NCBI GenBank assembly: GCA_026708055.1 | Contig: JAPOVS010000083.1 | Location: forward strand, 1 to 33,363 | Origin: a bacterium | GTDB lineage: Bacteria > Actinomycetota > Acidimicrobiia > Acidimicrobiales > CATQHL01 | Length of the DNA stretch: 33,363 nucleotides | Direction of reading: 5' to 3' | Part shown: piece by piece, positions 15,032-22,599 of the stretch | How the letters are laid out: each line of letters begins with the position of its first letter | Numbering within the stretch: the stretch's first letter is position 1 | The notes under the pieces: generated by a model | Told to the model about the DNA's origin: nothing | Databases searched by the model: none | Seen by the model: the letters and a program-made list of their open reading frames with translations, nothing else | Made by a program: the position numbers and the translations under genes

Positions 15032-15967
15032 CTACCAACCCCGCTCGGCCAGCCGGGTCTCCAGGTTGCCCAACTCGAGTCCGGGCATCGCCTCGCCGAG
15101 GCCGCGGCTCACCTTCAGCAGGATGGCGGGATCGTCGAAGTTGGTGGTTGCCTCCACGACCGCCTTGGCGCGCGCCGCCGGGTTGTCGCTCTTGAAGATG
15201 CCCGAACCCACGAACACGGCCTCGGCGCCCAGCTGCATGACCAGCGAGGCGTCGGCGGGGGTGGCGACGCCTCCCGCACAGAACAGCGGCACCGGCAGCC
15301 GGCCCACCTCGGCGAGCTCCCGCACCAGCGCCACCGGCGCCTGCAGCCGCTTCGCCCAGTCGTACAGCTCGGCGCTGTCGGCGACGGTGATCCGGCGGAT
15401 GTCGCCGGTGATGGAGCGGAGGTGGCGCACCGCCTCGATGATGTTGCCGGTGCCGGCCTCGCCCTTGGAGCGGATCATCGCCGCACCCTCCGATATCCGC
15501 CGGAGCGCCTCGCCGAGGTTCGTGGCGCCGCAGACGAAGGGGACCGTGAACTGCCACTTGTCGATGTGGTGAGCCTCATCGGCGGGCGTCAGCACCTCGC
15601 TCTCGTCGATGTAGTCCACGCCGAGGGCCTCGAGCACCTGCGCCTCGGCGAAATGGCCGATGCGGGCCTTGGCCATCACCGGGATGGTGACCGCCTCGAC
15701 GATGGACTCGATGATCTCCGGCGGGCTCATGCGCGCCACGCCGCCGTCGCGGCGGATGTCGGCCGGCACACGCTCGAGGGCCATCACGGCCACAGCCCCG
15801 GCGTCCTCGGCGATCCGGGCGTGCTCCGCGGTGACGACGTCCATGATGACGCCGCGCTTGAGCATCTCGGCGAGGCCGCGCTTGACCCGCATGGTGCCCT
15901 GGGCACGCCCCAGCGGGGCGGGTGGGGCCGTTGCGTTGGCGTCGGAAGGGTCGGCGGCGGAAGTCAT
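15032..15967 (-). CDS. pdxS: Pyridoxal 5'-phosphate synthase subunit PdxS
   Basis: The TIM-barrel synthase subunit of the DXP-independent PLP pathway. It has 311 residues. Recognisable blocks include [30 protein letters not shown], the [13 protein letters not shown] segment, [14 protein letters not shown], and F-V-G-S-G-I-F-K-S. The first ~24 residues are a variable A/P-rich tail, and the ATG at 15967 fits a leaderless promoter just upstream. Confidence 0.97.
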
Positions 15968-15973
15968 GGTTCC

Positions 15974-15979
15974 AGTGTA
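15974..15979 (-). promoter_or_regulatory. -10 hexamer TACACT for leaderless pdxS
   Basis: TACACT lies 6 nt before the pdxS ATG on the minus strand, inside the 60-bp gap to the preceding gene. No Shine-Dalgarno is visible in between. This suggests a separate leaderless pdxST transcript. Confidence 0.55.
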
Positions 15980-16027
15980 CGACGCGGCGCTTGGCTCACG
16001 GTCGGCGACGGCGCCGGCGCGGGCCGC

Positions 16028-16669
16028 TCACAAGTCGCCGAGGACCGTGATCCGGTCCGCCACACCGACCCGCCGGCGGCCCGGTCCGAGCGCCTCGTGC
16101 ATCCAGAGATGGCGGATCGCCGGCGAGCGACGCCTCAGCCGGGCCGCGCTCTCCTCCATGCGGGCCAGCGCACCCACCACCCCGGGCGGGAACCGTGTCA
16201 GCTGCGCCGCGCTGACGTCCGCCGCCACGACCCGCGCTCCGTCGAGACGCCGCGACGACCAGGACGCCCCGAAGGGACCGCCCAGCAGCGCCAGGGCGCA
16301 CAGCCGGGTGTCGCGGCGCGCGGTGCCGTCGGCGATGCGCGCCAGCAGGTGGGCCACCGTGCCTTCCAGCTCCACCGGGGCCAGGACGTCCAGCAGCCCG
16401 GTGGTCACCGCCACGGTGGCGGTGCGGGGGCCGCGCCCATAGGCCAGCGCACCGCAGGCCTCGTCGTCGATCACCGCCAGCCGGGGCACGGGCAGGCCGG
16501 CGCCGAGACACAGCGCCTCGACGTACACCTCCATCCGTTCGGCCTCGGCGGCGAGTGGGGGCCGCGCCCCGGCCAGACGCCCCGCGATGCGGCCCGCCGA
16601 CAGCAGCGCGGCGGCAATCGAGACCGCCAGGGCGCCGACGACGGCCACGACGATGATCAGCAGCGTCAC
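16028..16669 (-). CDS. Degenerate M48 (HtpX-like) protease homologue, metal ligands lost
   Basis: A 213-residue protein with an N-terminal membrane helix (1-24). Residues 48-112 follow the M48 pattern closely: Y-V-E-A-L-C-L-G-A-G-L-P-V-P-R-L, V-I-D-D-E-A, A-V-T-T-G-L-L-D-V-L, then V-E-L-E-G-T-V-A-H-L-L-A-R-I, where active enzymes have A-H-E-x-x-H-I. So HEXXH has become H-L-L-A-R (107-111). The third ligand, Glu in R-E-x-x-A-D, is V147 (R-V-V-A-A-D). The downstream A-Q-L-T-R-F-P-P-G-V block is conserved. It is probably an inactive pseudo-protease with a binding role at the membrane. The GTG start overlaps the pimA stop as GTGA. Confidence 0.8.
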   Translation of the reverse strand: MTLLIIVVAVVGALAVSIAAALLSAGRIAGRLAGARPPLAAEAERMEVYVEALCLGAGLPVPRLAVIDDEACGALAYGRGPRTATVAVTTGLLDVLAPVELEGTVAHLLARIADGTARRDTRLCALALLGGPFGASWSSRRLDGARVVAADVSAAQLTRFPPGVVGALARMEESAARLRRRSPAIRHLWMHEALGPGRRRVGVADRITVLGDL

Positions 16670-17727
16670 GCCAGCACCCTCTCGTAGACGGCGGCGTAGC
16701 GCTCGGCGAGCCGGTCCATCGAGAACTGCTCGGCCCGCTCGATGCCCCGGGTCACCAGGTCGCCCGGTGTCGCCAGCACCTCCCGGAGCGCCCCGGCGAG
16801 GCGCTCGGCGTCCCCGGGCGGCACCAGCGAGGCCTCGACCCCCGCACGCGCCACGCGGGTGTAGCCGGGAATGTCGGTGGCCACGATCGCCGTCTCGGCC
16901 GCCATCGCCTCCAGCAGCACGACGCCGAAGGACTCGCCGTGCAGCGAGGGCGCGCAGAACACGTCGGCGCCGCAGAGACGGCTGATCTTCTCGTCCTCGC
17001 TGAGGCGACCCAGCCACCTGATGCGGCGGTCATTGGCCGTGAGCCTCCGGAGGGTCTCGGTCTGGGGACCCTCGCCCCCGACCCACAGCACCACATCGGC
17101 CGGCAGCCTGCGCATGGCCGCCAGCAGCACGTCGAGGCCCTTGCGAGGCTCGTGGCGACCCACGAAGAAGATCGTGGGGCCTTCGGTGGGGTGCGGCTTG
17201 GTCTGGCGGAAACGCTCCACGGGGACACCGTTGAACAGCACCTCGTAGATCCCACCCAGGTGGCGGCGGGCCAGATCTGCGGCCTCGGCGGACACGGCGC
17301 CCCGCCAATCCAGGCGATTGCAGACCCAACGCAGCACCGGCGAGACGTTCTCGTAGGCGGCGGACCCCCCGGCGGCGTGGAAAGTGGCCACCAGCGGGGC
17401 GCGCTTGGAGACCAGGGCGGCGAGCGAGGGCGCCGGCACCAGCGGCTCGTGGACGTGCAGGAGGTCGAAGCGCTGATCCCGCAGCACCGCGTAGCTGCGC
17501 TGGAACGCCGGGATGTCGAAGGCGATCGGCGCGAAGGACCCGTTCGCGGCGATGAAGAGCGAGTTGCCGATGGGGATGATGTCGGGCTCGGGCGGGGGGC
17601 CGTCGCAGGGGCCCAGCAGGCTCACCGCCAGGCCGCGGCGCCGCAGGGCGCGTGCCAGGTAGAGGGCCTGCATCTGCACGCCGCCGGGAAGGGTGAAGCT
17701 GTAGGGGCTGATCATCCCCACGCGCAC
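16666..17727 (-). CDS. pimA: Phosphatidylinositol alpha-mannosyltransferase, PimA-like (GT4)
   Basis: Transfers mannose from GDP-mannose to phosphatidylinositol at the inner face of the membrane, the first step of PIM synthesis. It has 353 residues, with S-P-Y-S-F-T-L-P-G-G-V-Q near the N-terminus, V-H-E-P-L-V-P in the first domain, and F-V-G-R-H-E-P-R-K-G and the G-E-S-F-G-V-V-L-L-E-A-M E-x7-E motif in the second. I choose the GTG at 17727 (M-R-V-G-M-I-S-P), which matches the usual PimA N-terminus and lies 7 nt after a TAGCGT hexamer; the GTG at 17736 would lie within that element. Neighbours PgsA and the acyltransferase act in the same pathway. Confidence 0.9.
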   Translation of the reverse strand: MRVGMISPYSFTLPGGVQMQALYLARALRRRGLAVSLLGPCDGPPPEPDIIPIGNSLFIAANGSFAPIAFDIPAFQRSYAVLRDQRFDLLHVHEPLVPAPSLAALVSKRAPLVATFHAAGGSAAYENVSPVLRWVCNRLDWRGAVSAEAADLARRHLGGIYEVLFNGVPVERFRQTKPHPTEGPTIFFVGRHEPRKGLDVLLAAMRRLPADVVLWVGGEGPQTETLRRLTANDRRIRWLGRLSEDEKISRLCGADVFCAPSLHGESFGVVLLEAMAAETAIVATDIPGYTRVARAGVEASLVPPGDAERLAGALREVLATPGDLVTRGIERAEQFSMDRLAERYAAVYERVLA

Positions 17728-17734
17728 GGAACTC

Positions 17735-17740
17735 ACGCTA
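17735..17740 (-). promoter_or_regulatory. -10 hexamer TAGCGT for leaderless pimA, containing the acyltransferase stop codon
   Basis: The TAG stop of the acyltransferase gene opens the hexamer TAGCGT. Seven bases (GAGTTCC) later comes the GTG of pimA. There is no Shine-Dalgarno. Confidence 0.55.
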
Positions 17741-18709
17741 GCGGGAGCGCGCGCCGGCGGTAGCGCCGGACCCGGAGCGCAACGCAGCCACGGCCTCGCG
17801 ATCGCTCGGCCAATTGGGTTGCATCAGGTGCCACTGCGTCGGGGCGGGACGGATCATGTCCTCCAGCAGATGGGCCAGATCCTGGGTGGCCTCGGCGACG
17901 ACCTGGCGCAGGCGGCCCTCCCGGCTGACCAGGACCGGCGGGTAGGTCTTGGCGTGGCACTTCCCGCCGCGCCGCCGCACCACGACACCCACGATCGGCG
18001 ATCCGGTGCGCCGGGCCAGCACTGCCGCGCCGCCCGGCAGCGTGGTGGTCTCGCCGAAGAACTCCACCTCCACGCCGCCGCCGCCGATGTCCCGGTCGGT
18101 GAGCAGGCACACCACGTGACCGTCGTGGAGAGCGTGCGTGAGCGCGCCGAGCGCGCCCGGGCCGGCCGGCACGATCTCCATGCCGATCCGGCGGCGGAAC
18201 CGCTCCATCCAGGCGAACAGCTCGGGGTGCTCGATGGTTTCGACGACCGCGGTGACCTTGGTCCCGGGCCGCTGCGCCAGCCATACCCCCGCCCACTCCC
18301 AACTCCCCACGTGCGGCAGCGCCAGGATGGCGCCCGGCCCCATGCGCAGGGCGTCGGAGATGTTGTCGTAGTCCTCGAAGGTGAAACCGGCGTCCACCTC
18401 CGCCGGCGAGGCGGCCGCCAGCCGGGCGCAATCCACGTAGTAGCGGCCATAGGCGACGAAGGTCTCACGCACGGCGCGGCGCAAGGCGGCCCCGCTGGGC
18501 GCGGCACCGTCCGGGGCGGTGCGGCGCAGGTTGCGTTCCACGATGAGCCGCTGCTCGCTGCGCCGCAGCGCCAGGGCGCCGGCAAGCAGCCGGGTCCCGC
18601 CGTCGACCAGCCAGTCCGGCAACAGCGGCAGGAACCTGGCACCGAGCCGGTACTGCTCCAGCACCAGACGGTGCCGCAGCCGCGCCCGCAGGCCCGAACC
18701 GCGCCGCAC
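17738..18709 (-). CDS. Lysophospholipid/PIM acyltransferase, PatA-like (LpxL/HtrB family)
   Basis: A 323-residue membrane-associated acyltransferase. L-P-H-V-G-S-W-E-W contains the H-x4-E catalytic motif of the LpxL/PatA family. E-D-Y-D-N-I-S precedes it, and V-C-L-L-T-D-R-D-I-G-G-G-G-V-E-V-E-F-F-G and P-G-G-A-A-V-L-A-R-R follow, as in actinobacterial PIM acyltransferases. From its place between pgsA and pimA it probably acylates phosphatidylinositol mannosides. The GTG at 18709 lies 8 bp after the pgsA stop; an upstream extension in this frame overlaps pgsA and looks non-coding. Confidence 0.88.
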   Translation of the reverse strand: MRRGSGLRARLRHRLVLEQYRLGARFLPLLPDWLVDGGTRLLAGALALRRSEQRLIVERNLRRTAPDGAAPSGAALRRAVRETFVAYGRYYVDCARLAAASPAEVDAGFTFEDYDNISDALRMGPGAILALPHVGSWEWAGVWLAQRPGTKVTAVVETIEHPELFAWMERFRRRIGMEIVPAGPGALGALTHALHDGHVVCLLTDRDIGGGGVEVEFFGETTTLPGGAAVLARRTGSPIVGVVVRRRGGKCHAKTYPPVLVSREGRLRQVVAEATQDLAHLLEDMIRPAPTQWHLMQPNWPSDREAVAALRSGSGATAGARSR

Positions 18710-18717
18710 GCGCCCGC

Positions 18718-19287
18718 TCAGAACTGCCGCCAGATCTTGGCGAAGCGCTGCACGACGGTGACCAGCGTGAGCCCCAGCAGCGCCCACAGCACGTACGGCA
18801 GCCAGGCCACCACGAGCAGCCCGAAGCACAGCACCACGAACCGCTCGGCGCGTTCGGCCAGCCCGCCGCGGGCGTCGAGCCCGAGCGACTCGGCCTTGGC
18901 GCGCAGGTACGAGACGAACTGCCCCGAGGCCAGCACAGCCACCGGCAGCAGAGCCAGAACCCCGTCGTCGAGCAGGTGATAGGTGAGCGCCCCCAGGATC
19001 AGCGTGTCGGAGATCCGATCGCACACCGAGTCCAGGAACGCGCCGCGGGTGCTGACCGTCCCGGCGGCCTTGGCGACCGGGCCGTCCAGCAGGTCACCCA
19101 GCCCGGCGAGGACGATGAAGGTGAACGCCAGCCCGAACCGGTCGATGACCACCATGGCGGCGGTGGCCGCCGAGGCCGCCACACCGAACAGCGTCACGTG
19201 ATCGGCACGCACCCCCAAGCGCCAGAGCACCTTGCCGATCGGCACGACGACGCGGTCGACGCCCGCCCGCCAGCGCCCGTCGAGCAC
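18718..19287 (-). CDS. pgsA: CDP-alcohol phosphatidyltransferase, probable phosphatidylinositol phosphate synthase
   Basis: An integral membrane enzyme that joins CDP-diacylglycerol to an alcohol, probably inositol phosphate by its PIM-cluster neighbours. The catalytic signature G-D-L-L-D-G-P-V-A-K...G-A-F-L-D-S-V-C-D matches DxxDG(x)2A(R)...GxxxDxxxD, with Lys in place of the usual Arg. Several hydrophobic segments span the rest. From the GTG at 19287 it has 189 residues, giving ~36 residues before the first helix, as in mycobacterial homologues. A TTG at 19371 would add 28 residues encoded by one arm of a large hairpin, which seems less likely; the start remains uncertain. Confidence 0.88.
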   Translation of the reverse strand: MLDGRWRAGVDRVVVPIGKVLWRLGVRADHVTLFGVAASAATAAMVVIDRFGLAFTFIVLAGLGDLLDGPVAKAAGTVSTRGAFLDSVCDRISDTLILGALTYHLLDDGVLALLPVAVLASGQFVSYLRAKAESLGLDARGGLAERAERFVVLCFGLLVVAWLPYVLWALLGLTLVTVVQRFAKIWRQF

Positions 19288-19340
19288 GGTCCCGCTCAGA
19301 TCCCTAGCCGTGACAACCGGGGAGGTTGTCCCCGGTTCGA

Positions 19341-19411
19341 GGGGGCGGGGCGCAGGAGCCTCCGTGCTCAAACAGAGAAACTGCGCGCGGAGGCTCCTGC
19401 CCCCCGCCCCC
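19341..19411. repeat. Large inverted repeat, 24-position stem with one mismatch
   Basis: 19341-19364 pairs with 19388-19411 at 23 of 24 positions around a 23-nt loop. The inner 12 bp are CAGGAGCCTCCG / CGGAGGCTCCTG and the outer part is a G-run/C-run. It lies between the membrane protein gene (ends 19488) and pgsA. No U-tract follows in either direction. It may be a Rho-independent-like terminator, an mRNA-stabilising or attenuating hairpin for pgsA, or a mobile palindromic element. Confidence 0.85.
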
Positions 19412-19487
19412 TACCTCGGCTCGACATGAGGCCGACCTCCCCGCGCCGCTCGCGGACCTGGCCGCCCCTGCGCCCCGCCTCCAAGCG

Positions 19488-20075
19488 CTAGCCCGGCGGC
19501 TCATGGATGTCGGTGTCAGCGAGGTCCGACCAGTCCTCGGGGTTGTCCTCGACGATCACGTCCAGCACCTTCGGCTCCACGCCGTCCACGAGGACCAGAC
19601 CGCGCCGCAGGGGCCGTATCTCGTTCGAGAAGACCAGGATCCGCCAGGTCGGGCGGGAGAACCAGCCACGCCAGCCCATCTGCGCCGAGGCGTGACCCAC
19701 GGGGAAGCCCACGGCCCGCACCGCCTCCAGCAGGGCGTCGGTCTCCTCGACGCGCAGATCCCAGCCGGCCCGGAAGTGGTACGCCGCCAGCACCAGCAGG
19801 GCGATCCCCGCCGCCAGGAAGCCACCGTTGACGATGTTGGGATCGCTACCGATCGTCAGCGCCCAGGTGGCGATGGAGACGACGCCCAGGAAGGCGTAGA
19901 GGGCGCCGGGCACGCGCCGGCGGCTGTTGTTGGGGAAGACGTAAGGTCCGACGTAGCCGCTGACGTCCAACTCCGGCGGCAGTTCGTCGCCGATGTCCGG
20001 GCGGTCGGCGGCGCCGGCGGTGCCGGGCTGCCGCTCGTCCCCGGTCTCGGTTTCGGCCTCGGTCTCGGGAGCCAT
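19488..20075 (-). CDS. Conserved membrane protein of unknown function
   Basis: A 195-residue protein. The first ~35 residues are acidic (E/T/D-rich). Two membrane segments follow at about 57-75 and 83-98 (G-A-L-Y-A-F-L-G-V-V-S and G-G-F-L-A-A-G-I-A-L-L-V-L-A-A), then a soluble C-terminal domain with G-F-P-V-G-H-A-S-A-Q-M-G-W-R-G and W-R-I-L-V-F-S-N-E. I do not recognise a named family. Small membrane proteins are often seen between the HIT and pgsA genes in actinobacteria, so a role in phospholipid metabolism is possible but unproven. A TAGCGT hexamer lies 6 nt before the ATG. Confidence 0.85.
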   Translation of the reverse strand: MAPETEAETETGDERQPGTAGAADRPDIGDELPPELDVSGYVGPYVFPNNSRRRVPGALYAFLGVVSIATWALTIGSDPNIVNGGFLAAGIALLVLAAYHFRAGWDLRVEETDALLEAVRAVGFPVGHASAQMGWRGWFSRPTWRILVFSNEIRPLRRGLVLVDGVEPKVLDVIVEDNPEDWSDLADTDIHEPPG

Positions 20076-20081
20076 GATCCG

Positions 20082-20087
20082 ACGCTA
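20082..20087 (-). promoter_or_regulatory. -10 hexamer TAGCGT for a leaderless message, containing the HIT gene stop codon
   Basis: The TAG stop of the HIT gene is the first half of TAGCGT. After six bases (CGGATC) the ATG of the membrane protein gene follows. It is the same hexamer as at the pimA and thrS starts. Confidence 0.55.
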
Positions 20088-20609
20088 CCCGGCAGTCTGC
20101 TGCCAGGCGCCCCGCAGCTTGCGCCAGGTGTCCTCGAGCGTCTCGGGCAGCACCCGCACCCCGCCCACGGTCGTCATGAAGTTGGTGTCGCCCGCCCAGC
20201 GGGGCAGGCAGTGGACGTGCAGGTGGCCGGGCACGCCGGCGCCGGCCGCCCGGCCCAGGTTGAGCCCCACGTTCACCCCGTCGGGGTCGTAGGCGACCTG
20301 CAGCGCCTGCACCGCGGCGCGCACCGCAGCCCACAACTCCCCCCAGGTGGCGTCGTCGAGGTCGTCGGGTGAGGCGGCGGCGGTGTAGGGCACCACCAGC
20401 AGGTGCCCGGTCGTGTAGGGATAGGCGTTCAGCACGGCATAGGTGTGCTCGCCGCGCCACAGCACGAAGGTCTCGCTGTCGGGGAGGTCGCCCCGCCCGA
20501 TCGCCTCGAAGGGCGAGGAGAACCCCGAGCCCTCCTCGTCCGCCTCCGCGCTCACCGCGGCCACGTAGTCGGCCCGCCACCCGGCCCAGAGCCGGCCCAA
20601 CTCACTCAT
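20085..20609 (-). CDS. HIT-domain protein, AP4A phosphorylase/hydrolase-like
   Basis: A 174-residue histidine-triad protein. N-A-Y-P-Y-T-T-G-H-L-L-V-V-P-Y and the active-site G-H-L-H-V-H-C-L-P-R-W (H-x-H-x-H pattern) identify the family. Such enzymes act on dinucleoside polyphosphates or adenylated substrates; mycobacterial homologues next to thrS are annotated as AP4A phosphorylase. Being next to thrS is suggestive, because aminoacyl-tRNA synthetases make AP4A. GGGAGAGAG precedes the ATG, and the gap to thrS is 25 bp. Confidence 0.92.
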   Translation of the reverse strand: MSELGRLWAGWRADYVAAVSAEADEEGSGFSSPFEAIGRGDLPDSETFVLWRGEHTYAVLNAYPYTTGHLLVVPYTAAASPDDLDDATWGELWAAVRAAVQALQVAYDPDGVNVGLNLGRAAGAGVPGHLHVHCLPRWAGDTNFMTTVGGVRVLPETLEDTWRKLRGAWQQTAG

Positions 20610-20634
20610 CGCGACTCTCTCCCGGGCCCGCTCA

Positions 20635-22599
20635 TCAGCGCGGCGCCGCCTCGGCCAGCATCCGGGCCGTCAGGGTGGCCAGCGGGACGTCCCGCTCGGT
20701 CTCGGCGGCCCGCGGGTTGACGCCGACGGTGCCCGCCGCCACGTCGCTGGCGCCCACGACCAGCACGTAGGGAACCTTCTGGAGCTTGGCGGCACGCACC
20801 CGCCGCCCCAGCGGCTCGTCGCTGGCCATCACCTCGACGCGCAGCCCCGCGGCGCGCAACTCATCGGCCACCTCGGCGGCGTAGCCGGCGTGGTCGGCCG
20901 CCACCGGCAGCACACTCGCCTGCACCGGGGCCAGCCAGGTGGGGAACGCGCCCGCATAGTGCTCGAGCAGGACCCCGAAGAAGCGTTCCAGCGAGCCGAA
21001 CAGGGCGCGATGGATCATCAGCGGGCGGTGGCGCTGCCCGTCGGGTCCCGTGTAGTGCAGGTCGAACCGCTCCGGCAGGTTGAAGTCCACCTGCAGGGTG
21101 GAGAGCTGCCAGGCCCGGCCGATGGCGTCGGTCACGTCGACGTCGATCTTCGGCCCGTAGAAGGCGCCGCCGCCGGGGTCGGTGACGTAGTCGAGTCCCG
21201 CCGATTCGAGGGCGGCGCGCAGTCCCTCGGTGGCCAGGTCCCACATCTCGACGGGGCCGACCGCCTTGGTCGCCGGGCGCGTCGAGAGCTTGGCCTGGAA
21301 GTCGTCGAAGCCGAAGGCCCGCAGCACCGACAGCACGAAGTCGAGCAGCGAGGCCAGTTCCGACGGCACCTGCTCGGCGGTGGCGAAGATGTGGCTGTCG
21401 TCCTGCGTGAAGCCCCGGGACCGCAGCAGGCCGTGCACCGCCCCCGACAGCTCGTAGCGGTAGACGGCGCCCAACTCGAACAGGCGCAGGGGCAGATCCC
21501 GGTAGGAGCGCTGGCCGGACCGGTAGATCATCACGTGGAACGGGCAGTTCATGGGCTTGGGGTAGTAGGCGGCCCCGTCCAGCTCCATCGGGGGGTACAT
21601 GCTCTCGGCGTAGAAGTCCAGGTGGCCGCTGGTCTCCCAGAGGTTGGACTTGGCGAGGTGCGGGGTGTACACGAACTGGTAGCCGCCCTCGACGTGCCGG
21701 CGGCGGCTGTAGTCCTCCATGAGGTGCCGCACCAGGGCCCCCTTGGGATGCCACACGGCCAGGCCCGGGCCGAGCTCCTCGGGCCAGGACAGCAGGTCCA
21801 GCTCGCGGGCCAGGCGCCGGTGGTCGCGCCGGGCGGCCTCGGCGAGACGATGCAGGTGGGCCTTCAGGTCTGCGGCGCTGGCCCAGGCGGTGCCGTAGAT
21901 GCGCTGCAGCATGGGACGGTCACTGTCGCCGCGCCAGTAGGCGCCTGCCACCCGCTGCAGGGCGAAGTGACCGAGGCGACCGGTGGAGGGCACGTGCGGA
22001 CCCAGACAGAGATCCACGAAGTCCTCGCCGTTGGCATAGCAACTCACGCTGCCGTCCCCGCCGGCCTCGCCGGCCAGATCGGCGTCGGCCTCGCCCTCGA
22101 CGCCGACGCTGACGCGCTCGATGATCTCGCGCTTGTAGGGGTGGTCGGCGAAGACCTCCAGGGCCTCGGTGGCGTCGATGTCGCGGCGCACGAACGGCTG
22201 ATCGGCGGCGATGATCTCCCGCATCCGCGCCTCGATCCGCTCCAGGTCCTCGTCGCTGAAGGTGGCCCCGCCCGGCAGCTCGAAGTCGTAGTAGAAGCCG
22301 TCGGCCACCGGCGGCCCGATGGCGAAGGTCGCCCCCGGGTAGAGCCCCAGCACCGCCTGCGCCAGGACGTGCGCCGTGGAGTGGCGCAGCGTGTGCAGGC
22401 CCCGCTCACTCTCGGCGGTCACGATCTCGGTGGTTGCGCCGTCGACCAGCGGCGCCGACAGATCCACCTCGGCGCCGTCGACGCTGGCGATCACGGCGTC
22501 TCGGGCGAGCCGCCGGCCGATCGAGGCGGCCAGATCGGCAGCGGTGGCACCCTCGGGAAGGTCGCGCGCCGAGCCGTCCGGCAGCAGCACACGAACCAT
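20635..22599 (-). CDS. thrS: Threonyl-tRNA synthetase
   Basis: Charges tRNA-Thr. The 654-residue protein has the N-terminal TGS domain (1-60), the editing domain with H-S-T-A-H-V-L-A-Q-A (73-82) and its C-Y-A-N-G-E-D-F block, the class II core with M-N-C-P-F-H (zinc Cys), F-E-L-G-A-V-Y-R-Y-E, and the C-terminal anticodon-binding domain with V-P-Y-V-L-V-V-G. The ATG at 22599 lies 7 nt after a TAGCGT hexamer. Any T-box or leader control is excluded if the message is leaderless. Confidence 0.97.
   Translation of the reverse strand: MVRVLLPDGSARDLPEGATAADLAASIGRRLARDAVIASVDGAEVDLSAPLVDGATTEIVTAESERGLHTLRHSTAHVLAQAVLGLYPGATFAIGPPVADGFYYDFELPGGATFSDEDLERIEARMREIIAADQPFVRRDIDATEALEVFADHPYKREIIERVSVGVEGEADADLAGEAGGDGSVSCYANGEDFVDLCLGPHVPSTGRLGHFALQRVAGAYWRGDSDRPMLQRIYGTAWASAADLKAHLHRLAEAARRDHRRLARELDLLSWPEELGPGLAVWHPKGALVRHLMEDYSRRRHVEGGYQFVYTPHLAKSNLWETSGHLDFYAESMYPPMELDGAAYYPKPMNCPFHVMIYRSGQRSYRDLPLRLFELGAVYRYELSGAVHGLLRSRGFTQDDSHIFATAEQVPSELASLLDFVLSVLRAFGFDDFQAKLSTRPATKAVGPVEMWDLATEGLRAALESAGLDYVTDPGGGAFYGPKIDVDVTDAIGRAWQLSTLQVDFNLPERFDLHYTGPDGQRHRPLMIHRALFGSLERFFGVLLEHYAGAFPTWLAPVQASVLPVAADHAGYAAEVADELRAAGLRVEVMASDEPLGRRVRAAKLQKVPYVLVVGASDVAAGTVGVNPRAAETERDVPLATLTARMLAEAAPR

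Follow-up and report, generated by a model that had tools for sequence, protein, structure and literature searches.

A predicted membrane-anchored pseudoprotease of HtpX descent encoded between pimA and pdxS, at a locus where the zinc site has been lost repeatedly in Acidimicrobiia

Pseudoproteases are best known from eukaryotes, and to our knowledge few have been described in bacteria. The protein reported here resembles the membrane protease HtpX (M48B; PRK04897 and the HtpX domain of PDB 3cqb) in the sequence of residues 6–115, in fold and in its N-terminal hydrophobic helix, but it lacks the HEXXH Glu, the second His and the third zinc ligand of HtpX, and has 213 residues against about 300. 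With the LemA-linked HtpX proteins of Actinomycetota it has its locus and a TRYPPG-type motif in common, whereas its own family is without LemA (9/9 genomes) and has lost both the zinc site and an internal hairpin. A more distant fold match is the M56 sensor protease BlaR1 (Z 9.9, rmsd 6.5); BlaR1 differs in being a large sensor protein, its zinc site is intact, and no M56 model in Pfam or NCBIfam matched our protein. The use of a membrane protease fold without catalysis, which we propose for this protein too, is reported for the rhomboid YqgP (PMC7231995) and the iRhom pseudoproteases (PMC6451368), whose folds are unrelated to the one considered here. In Bacillus subtilis, YqgP is reported to be a protease that also serves as a substrate adaptor of FtsH, a role for which it does not require its proteolytic activity (PMC7231995). 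Among the titles and abstract openings covered on HtpX, M48 and LemA, bacterial pseudoproteases, Acidimicrobiia and phosphatidylinositol mannoside (PIM) genes, a set to which most subscription journals do not belong, none describes such a protein.

The window, by which we mean the whole 33,363-nucleotide stretch of acidimicrobial DNA that was analysed, carries the gene on its reverse strand at 16028–16669. The gene, that of an M48-fold pseudoprotease, encodes 213 residues between a GTG start and a TGA stop. HEXXH is replaced by HLLAR (residues 107–111; 16337–16351, reverse strand), and the third ligand, Glu, by Val147 (16229–16231, reverse strand), four residues before Asp151 of the ExxxD motif (16217–16219, reverse strand), which is retained in all 17 zinc-site-less families described below. 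TRFPPG (residues 158–163; 16181–16198, reverse strand) is a variant of the TRYPPG motif that is retained with or without a zinc site. The hydrophobic N-terminal helix, residues 2–23 (16601–16666, reverse strand), is apparent in both model and sequence and is the likely membrane anchor. Only 39 residues separate the place of the second His from the Asp, versus 71–83 in the long, hairpin-bearing forms. The closest named records to the window are Acidimicrobiia metagenome genomes, several of the nearest of which we take, from their bin codes, to be sponge-derived.

The AlphaFold model of the protein (mean pLDDT 95.5, pTM 0.90) matched ZMPSTE24 (Z 11.9, rmsd 4.2, 172 residues aligned) and, among further M48 structures, 3c37 (Z 11.8), BepA (Z 11.5), Ste24 (Z 11.3) and the HtpX domain (Z 9.5); low-ranking matches (Z below ~6) were treated as other metalloproteases or noise. 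Foldseek returned two matches at E ≤ 0.001, both of them chains of 3c37. NCBIfam HtpX models matched residues 6–115 only (best E 1.6e-22; 80.1 bits versus a cut-off of 355) and a Pfam search gave no match at E ≤ 0.1, while the locus copies of the sister-genus genome G008 (31.3 bits) and of G043 (33.5 bits) passed the PF01435 cut-off of 20.3. Of the features that mark M48B/HtpX membership, the fold is present, and HEXXH, the third ligand, the hairpin and an above-cut-off model are absent. With protease ancestry and its essential catalytic residues lost, the protein is a pseudoprotease by descent and almost certainly catalytically dead. We conclude that the gene product descends from HtpX (M48B) and is a pseudoprotease, probably anchored in the membrane. 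The same genome encodes elsewhere an intact-looking HtpX-like gene (HELMH, REFKAD). The original prediction had described an HtpX-like fold with HLLAR in place of HEXXH and Val in place of the third ligand; the residues read as claimed, and the structure prediction, which could have returned a different fold, was confidently M48. Also readable as claimed is the overlap of the gene with the end of pimA, where the pseudoprotease GTG (16667–16669) and the pimA TGA (16666–16668) form a GTGA (16666–16669, reverse strand).

All 8 members of the genus have this overlap, as GTGA in six and as TTGA in two, G002 included. In the sister-genus genome G008 the gap between pimA and the M48 gene is 64 nt, and in other families it runs from 52 to several hundred nt, with the start codons of all these relatives picked by script. 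Upstream, on the same strand, lie the overlapping pimA-like GT4 glycosyltransferase gene (16666–17736), named by position and in the original prediction rather than by a PimA-specific model; a PIM acyltransferase gene (17738–18700, start approximate; NF005919 222.9 bits, cut-off 209), separated from pimA by a single nucleotide and thus equally tightly packed; and a PI-phosphate synthase-like CDP-alcohol transferase gene (pgsA; 18718–19371), which exceeds the PF01066 cut-off and scores 133.6 bits with NF045883, below its cut-off of 170. Neither Pfam nor NCBIfam gave a match at E ≤ 0.1 for a 195-aa frame at 19488–20075, which lies between the PI-phosphate synthase-like gene and a HIT-domain gene. 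Downstream, 60 nt from the 3' end of the pseudoprotease frame, is pdxS (15032–15967, reverse strand), probably a transcription unit of its own. Directly 5' of pdxS, the block CGTACACTGG (window 15965–15981) is identical in 8/8 genus members and ends 3–6 bases from the pdxS ATG in a spacer that otherwise diverges among them; it includes the -10-like hexamer TACACT (15974–15979, reverse strand), 6 nt 5' of the ATG. The block is likely a leaderless pdxS promoter, and since it is invariant, the pseudoprotease gene is probably the last of the pgsA-acyltransferase-pimA unit. Over 15500–20700, a consensus promoter scan found 0 promoters, and a terminator scan found one terminator-like site against 0.7 expected.

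The original prediction also held that the gene is under selection, and comparison of orthologues indicated conservation, not decay. The window's family is represented by nine genomes, eight of the genus and one of a sister genus, and in 9/9 the frame has no internal stop and the zinc site is lost. His, Leu and Arg of HLLAR occur in all nine, and the place of the third ligand is occupied by Val (7), Ile (1) or Ala (1), followed by the Asp. Across 28 genus pairs the median dN/dS of the pseudoprotease is 0.258 (0.109–0.311), with 0.232 for the core (residues 41–213) and 0.504 for the N-terminus. This is higher than the medians of all six neighbours, near those of the acyltransferase (0.215) and pdxT (0.224) and above yebC (0.171), pgsA (0.138), pimA (0.124) and pdxS (0.076). 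A GC-driven open reading frame was rejected by a six-frame control on seven equal-length genus copies (21 pairs), in which the gene's frame was without stops at pN/pS 0.36 and the remaining five frames ranged over 0.44–1.95. One antisense frame is likewise stop-free in 7/7 copies, yet its pN/pS is 1.36. The frame that comes closest to the gene's pN/pS, at 0.44, carries 0–2 stops per sequence. We hold with high confidence that the gene is under purifying selection. Decay was set aside on the open frames of the family and a dN/dS well below 1; since the gene exceeds all six neighbours in rate and copies lacking the zinc site have long branches, selection may nevertheless be weak in some lineages.

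The position itself is widely kept. All 60 genomes surveyed have an M48 relative somewhere, and with a strict tblastn cut-off an M48 gene lies between pimA and pdxS on the same strand in 39 of the 42 whole-genome loci with both flanks. Among the three exceptions, a profile or looser search recovers the M48 gene in G040 and G028, and L035 has an ambiguous pimA fragment. In contig loci found by pattern search (L099–L170, from the best 80 of 312), M48 lay between pimA and pdxS in 58/58, lemA was present in 71/72 and DUF3048 in 62/72. The usual order is pimA-lemA-M48-DUF3048-pdxS, with an active-type M48 protein of roughly 300 residues. This order, with HExxH, also occurs in G075, from another family of the class, and partial versions with HExxH occur in other classes of Actinomycetota, where HExxH was checked by pattern and the third ligand in the gene-tree rows. 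LemA was detected in 27 of the 60 genomes and in 0/9 of the window's family. At the locus of G081 (L216:6358–7240), pdxS matches were split into two pieces whose coordinates imply different frames, that is, a frameshift or sequencing error.

When HEXXH was compared among orthologues at the locus, as the original prediction had proposed, loss was uniform within the window's family; its recurrence in many other families had not been foreseen. Among 49 classified Acidimicrobiia families, 17 have a disrupted zinc site. Forms were called long or short according to how many residues separate the second His from the Asp, and the family count used one genome per family, 47 of the 60. Outside that count were G001–G008 of the window's family, three genomes in which the locus could not be resolved (G009, G054 and G055), two distal copies, the G058 distal copy and G040; once the G040 and G058 locus copies are included, the total is 49 families. 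Among the 47, long forms were intact in 19 families and lost in none, while short forms were intact in 13 and lost in 15 (Fisher p 6e-5, with no correction for descent). In the G040 locus copy the His, Glu, His and third ligand are all changed. The G058 locus copy (L180:1559–2665) has HCLAH, retaining three zinc ligands with the catalytic Glu replaced by Cys, and may possibly bind zinc without cutting. When the contig loci (best 80 of 312) were taken together with G040 and G058, long forms were intact in 71/71, two of these loci coming from genomes already counted, and of 11 short forms ten were lost (eight in the window's family, G040 and G058) and one was intact. Ten of the 80 contig loci duplicate counted genomes (eight of the window's family, G038 and G048), and lost forms are under-sampled among the 80, since one of the two peptide patterns used to find them demands the first His. 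Losses were thus seen only in forms without the internal hairpin.

Six flanking proteins from 49 genomes (1467 columns) gave a tree, its bootstrap not settled, on which zinc-site state changes roughly nine times; starred branches force five of these changes, and bootstrap trees give 7–10. The grouping of all losers as one clade was rejected (p-AU 7.3e-12), and a single loss of the zinc site in Acidimicrobiia is rejected by tree and AU test together. By family, the site was intact in 19 and lost in three where lemA is adjacent, and intact in 13 and lost in 12 where it is not (Fisher p 0.015; adjacency tabulated by hand). The absence of lemA as the driver of loss was set aside, as phylogenetically independent pairs were too few for significance. 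In the five supported independent pairs that differ in zinc site, the hairpin differed in the same direction in 2.4 on average and never in the opposite one. The associations of lemA and of the hairpin with loss are therefore patterns, not tests.

Seven residues, Gly58, Glu102, Leu109, Asp151, Thr158, Pro161 and Arg206, are present in 17/17 zinc-site-less families, and Pro62, Arg159 and Pro162 in 16/17, while His107 persists in 6/17, Glu108 in 3/17, His111 in 1/17 and Glu147 in 3/17. The kept scaffold residues are compatible with any folded non-catalytic role. In 15 of the 16 families with a changed His, Arg or Lys occupies one or both of the former His places. A plain mutational null gives this enrichment a P of 3e-6; allowing for a threefold GC bias brings it to 0.004, and collapsing related families to 0.016. 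The pattern was framed after the residues had been seen and weakens under GC-biased mutation. As the Asp of ExxxD contacts the first His of HEXXH in gluzincins, a basic residue nearby could replace zinc.

Since the zinc site has been lost repeatedly at one locus, a conserved job other than cutting proteins is suggested, and a binding role is indicated by selection, at one position in many lineages, on the fold without its active site. To judge from these sequences, the conserved function of the locus protein looks non-proteolytic; as long forms are all intact, the statement that cutting is dispensable can hold for short forms only. We propose that the window protein would be a membrane-tethered adaptor or holdase whose former substrate cleft grips a client membrane protein, a role for and against which we would argue with equal conviction. 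Arg111 would stand near the retained Asp151 and substitute for zinc, so that the fold would require no metal. The active ancestor would probably have both cut and held, with only holding required everywhere at the locus. Co-produced with PimA, the protein may act on the PIM unit, a general envelope client being equally likely; that its clients are PIM enzymes we think improbable. In a special case of the adaptor, which we likewise consider unlikely, the protein would bind at the membrane to either PimA or the acyltransferase and so tune PIM synthesis. Its place as last gene of the pgsA-acyltransferase-pimA run, the GTGA/TTGA overlap in 8/8 genus members and the separate promoter-like block of pdxS would fit such a regulator, but active-type M48 relatives occupy the same place, often with lemA intervening, the overlap gives way to the gaps noted above in G008 and other families, and tight packing is general in the window's unit. 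As the place beside pimA is common to active-type relatives and acyltransferase-pimA is as tight, gene order and overlap are weak evidence of partnership; the pseudoprotease owes its pimA neighbourhood to active-type ancestors. Slow decay of a redundant but still folded protease would be in keeping with the absence of LemA from the family and with a dN/dS above that of six neighbours, but with nine frames free of internal stops, dN/dS well under 1 and seven scaffold residues retained in all 17 zinc-site-less families, we judge it very unlikely. It is still harder to credit that the protein remains an enzyme dependent on metal, by way of new ligands or other chemistry: the eight aligned family sequences all have His107, Arg111 and Asp151 and the G058 copy has lost the catalytic Glu alone, but the window protein is without two of three ligands as well as that Glu, and the replacement residues vary between families.

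Set against the adaptor or holdase in its general form is an account of descent that would fit part of the pattern just as well, and which we regard as plausible, though short of an even chance. Here a duplicate of the lemA-linked HtpX would have lost its hairpin and evolved fast; some lineages would have retained it at the pimA locus and others the long form, with the losses falling within one relaxed, ancient paralogue family. In the gene tree, long forms cluster on short branches and most short or zinc-site-less forms lie outside, on long branches, but this tree, made by a quick method, is poorly resolved (of 81 inner branches, nine starred and 44 open). G084 (L199:679–2372) has a tandem long and short M48 pair, both HELAH, between lemA and pdxS, and it is possible that this pair depicts how the short form arose. 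G060 and G090 combine a zinc-site-less copy at the locus with a lemA-linked long M48 copy with HExxH elsewhere. However, the short intact copies of G033 and of G084 (its second) fall within the long cluster, so that shortening probably occurred more than once, and in the flanking-gene tree the 36 short rows still show five changes of zinc-site state; the paralogue account thus has less bearing on the repeated loss than on how the short form originated. Our broader reading, offered tentatively and with somewhat more doubt than assent, is that the pimA-pdxS locus of Actinomycetota would hold an HtpX-type protein with an old, required non-proteolytic job, in which loss of the hairpin frees the zinc site and Arg or Lys repeatedly replaces zinc binding, so that pseudoproteases would have arisen many times in parallel at a single place in the chromosome. 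At this locus, related species carry the protein in intact, ligand-only (G058) and fully zinc-site-less versions, natural variants with which the value of cutting, of metal binding and of holding could be separated by swaps. The locus may reveal roles of HtpX beyond cutting, and may indicate that the actinobacterial PI-mannoside unit has a member so far overlooked.

Zinc-site loss is also found in a second class, in family f56, where 16/16 genomes have a zinc-site-less copy, mostly HCxxR. Arg at the place of the second His and the Asp are retained in all 16, together with a TRYPP-like motif. Either pimA or pdxS lies within the sequence read in 13 of the 16, and the place was assumed for G125, G126 and G116. 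The remaining eight genomes of this class (families f82 and f83) have M48 matches; six further matches in the class were set aside, five of them zinc-site-intact at other places and one spurious. The model of the G128 copy (pLDDT 85.9, pTM 0.78) again matched M48 folds (Z 12.2, rmsd 6.0). At eight f56 loci (L207, L208, L226, L229, L231, L234, L237 and L239), two consecutive DUF3048-like stretches lie near the zinc-site-less M48 gene.
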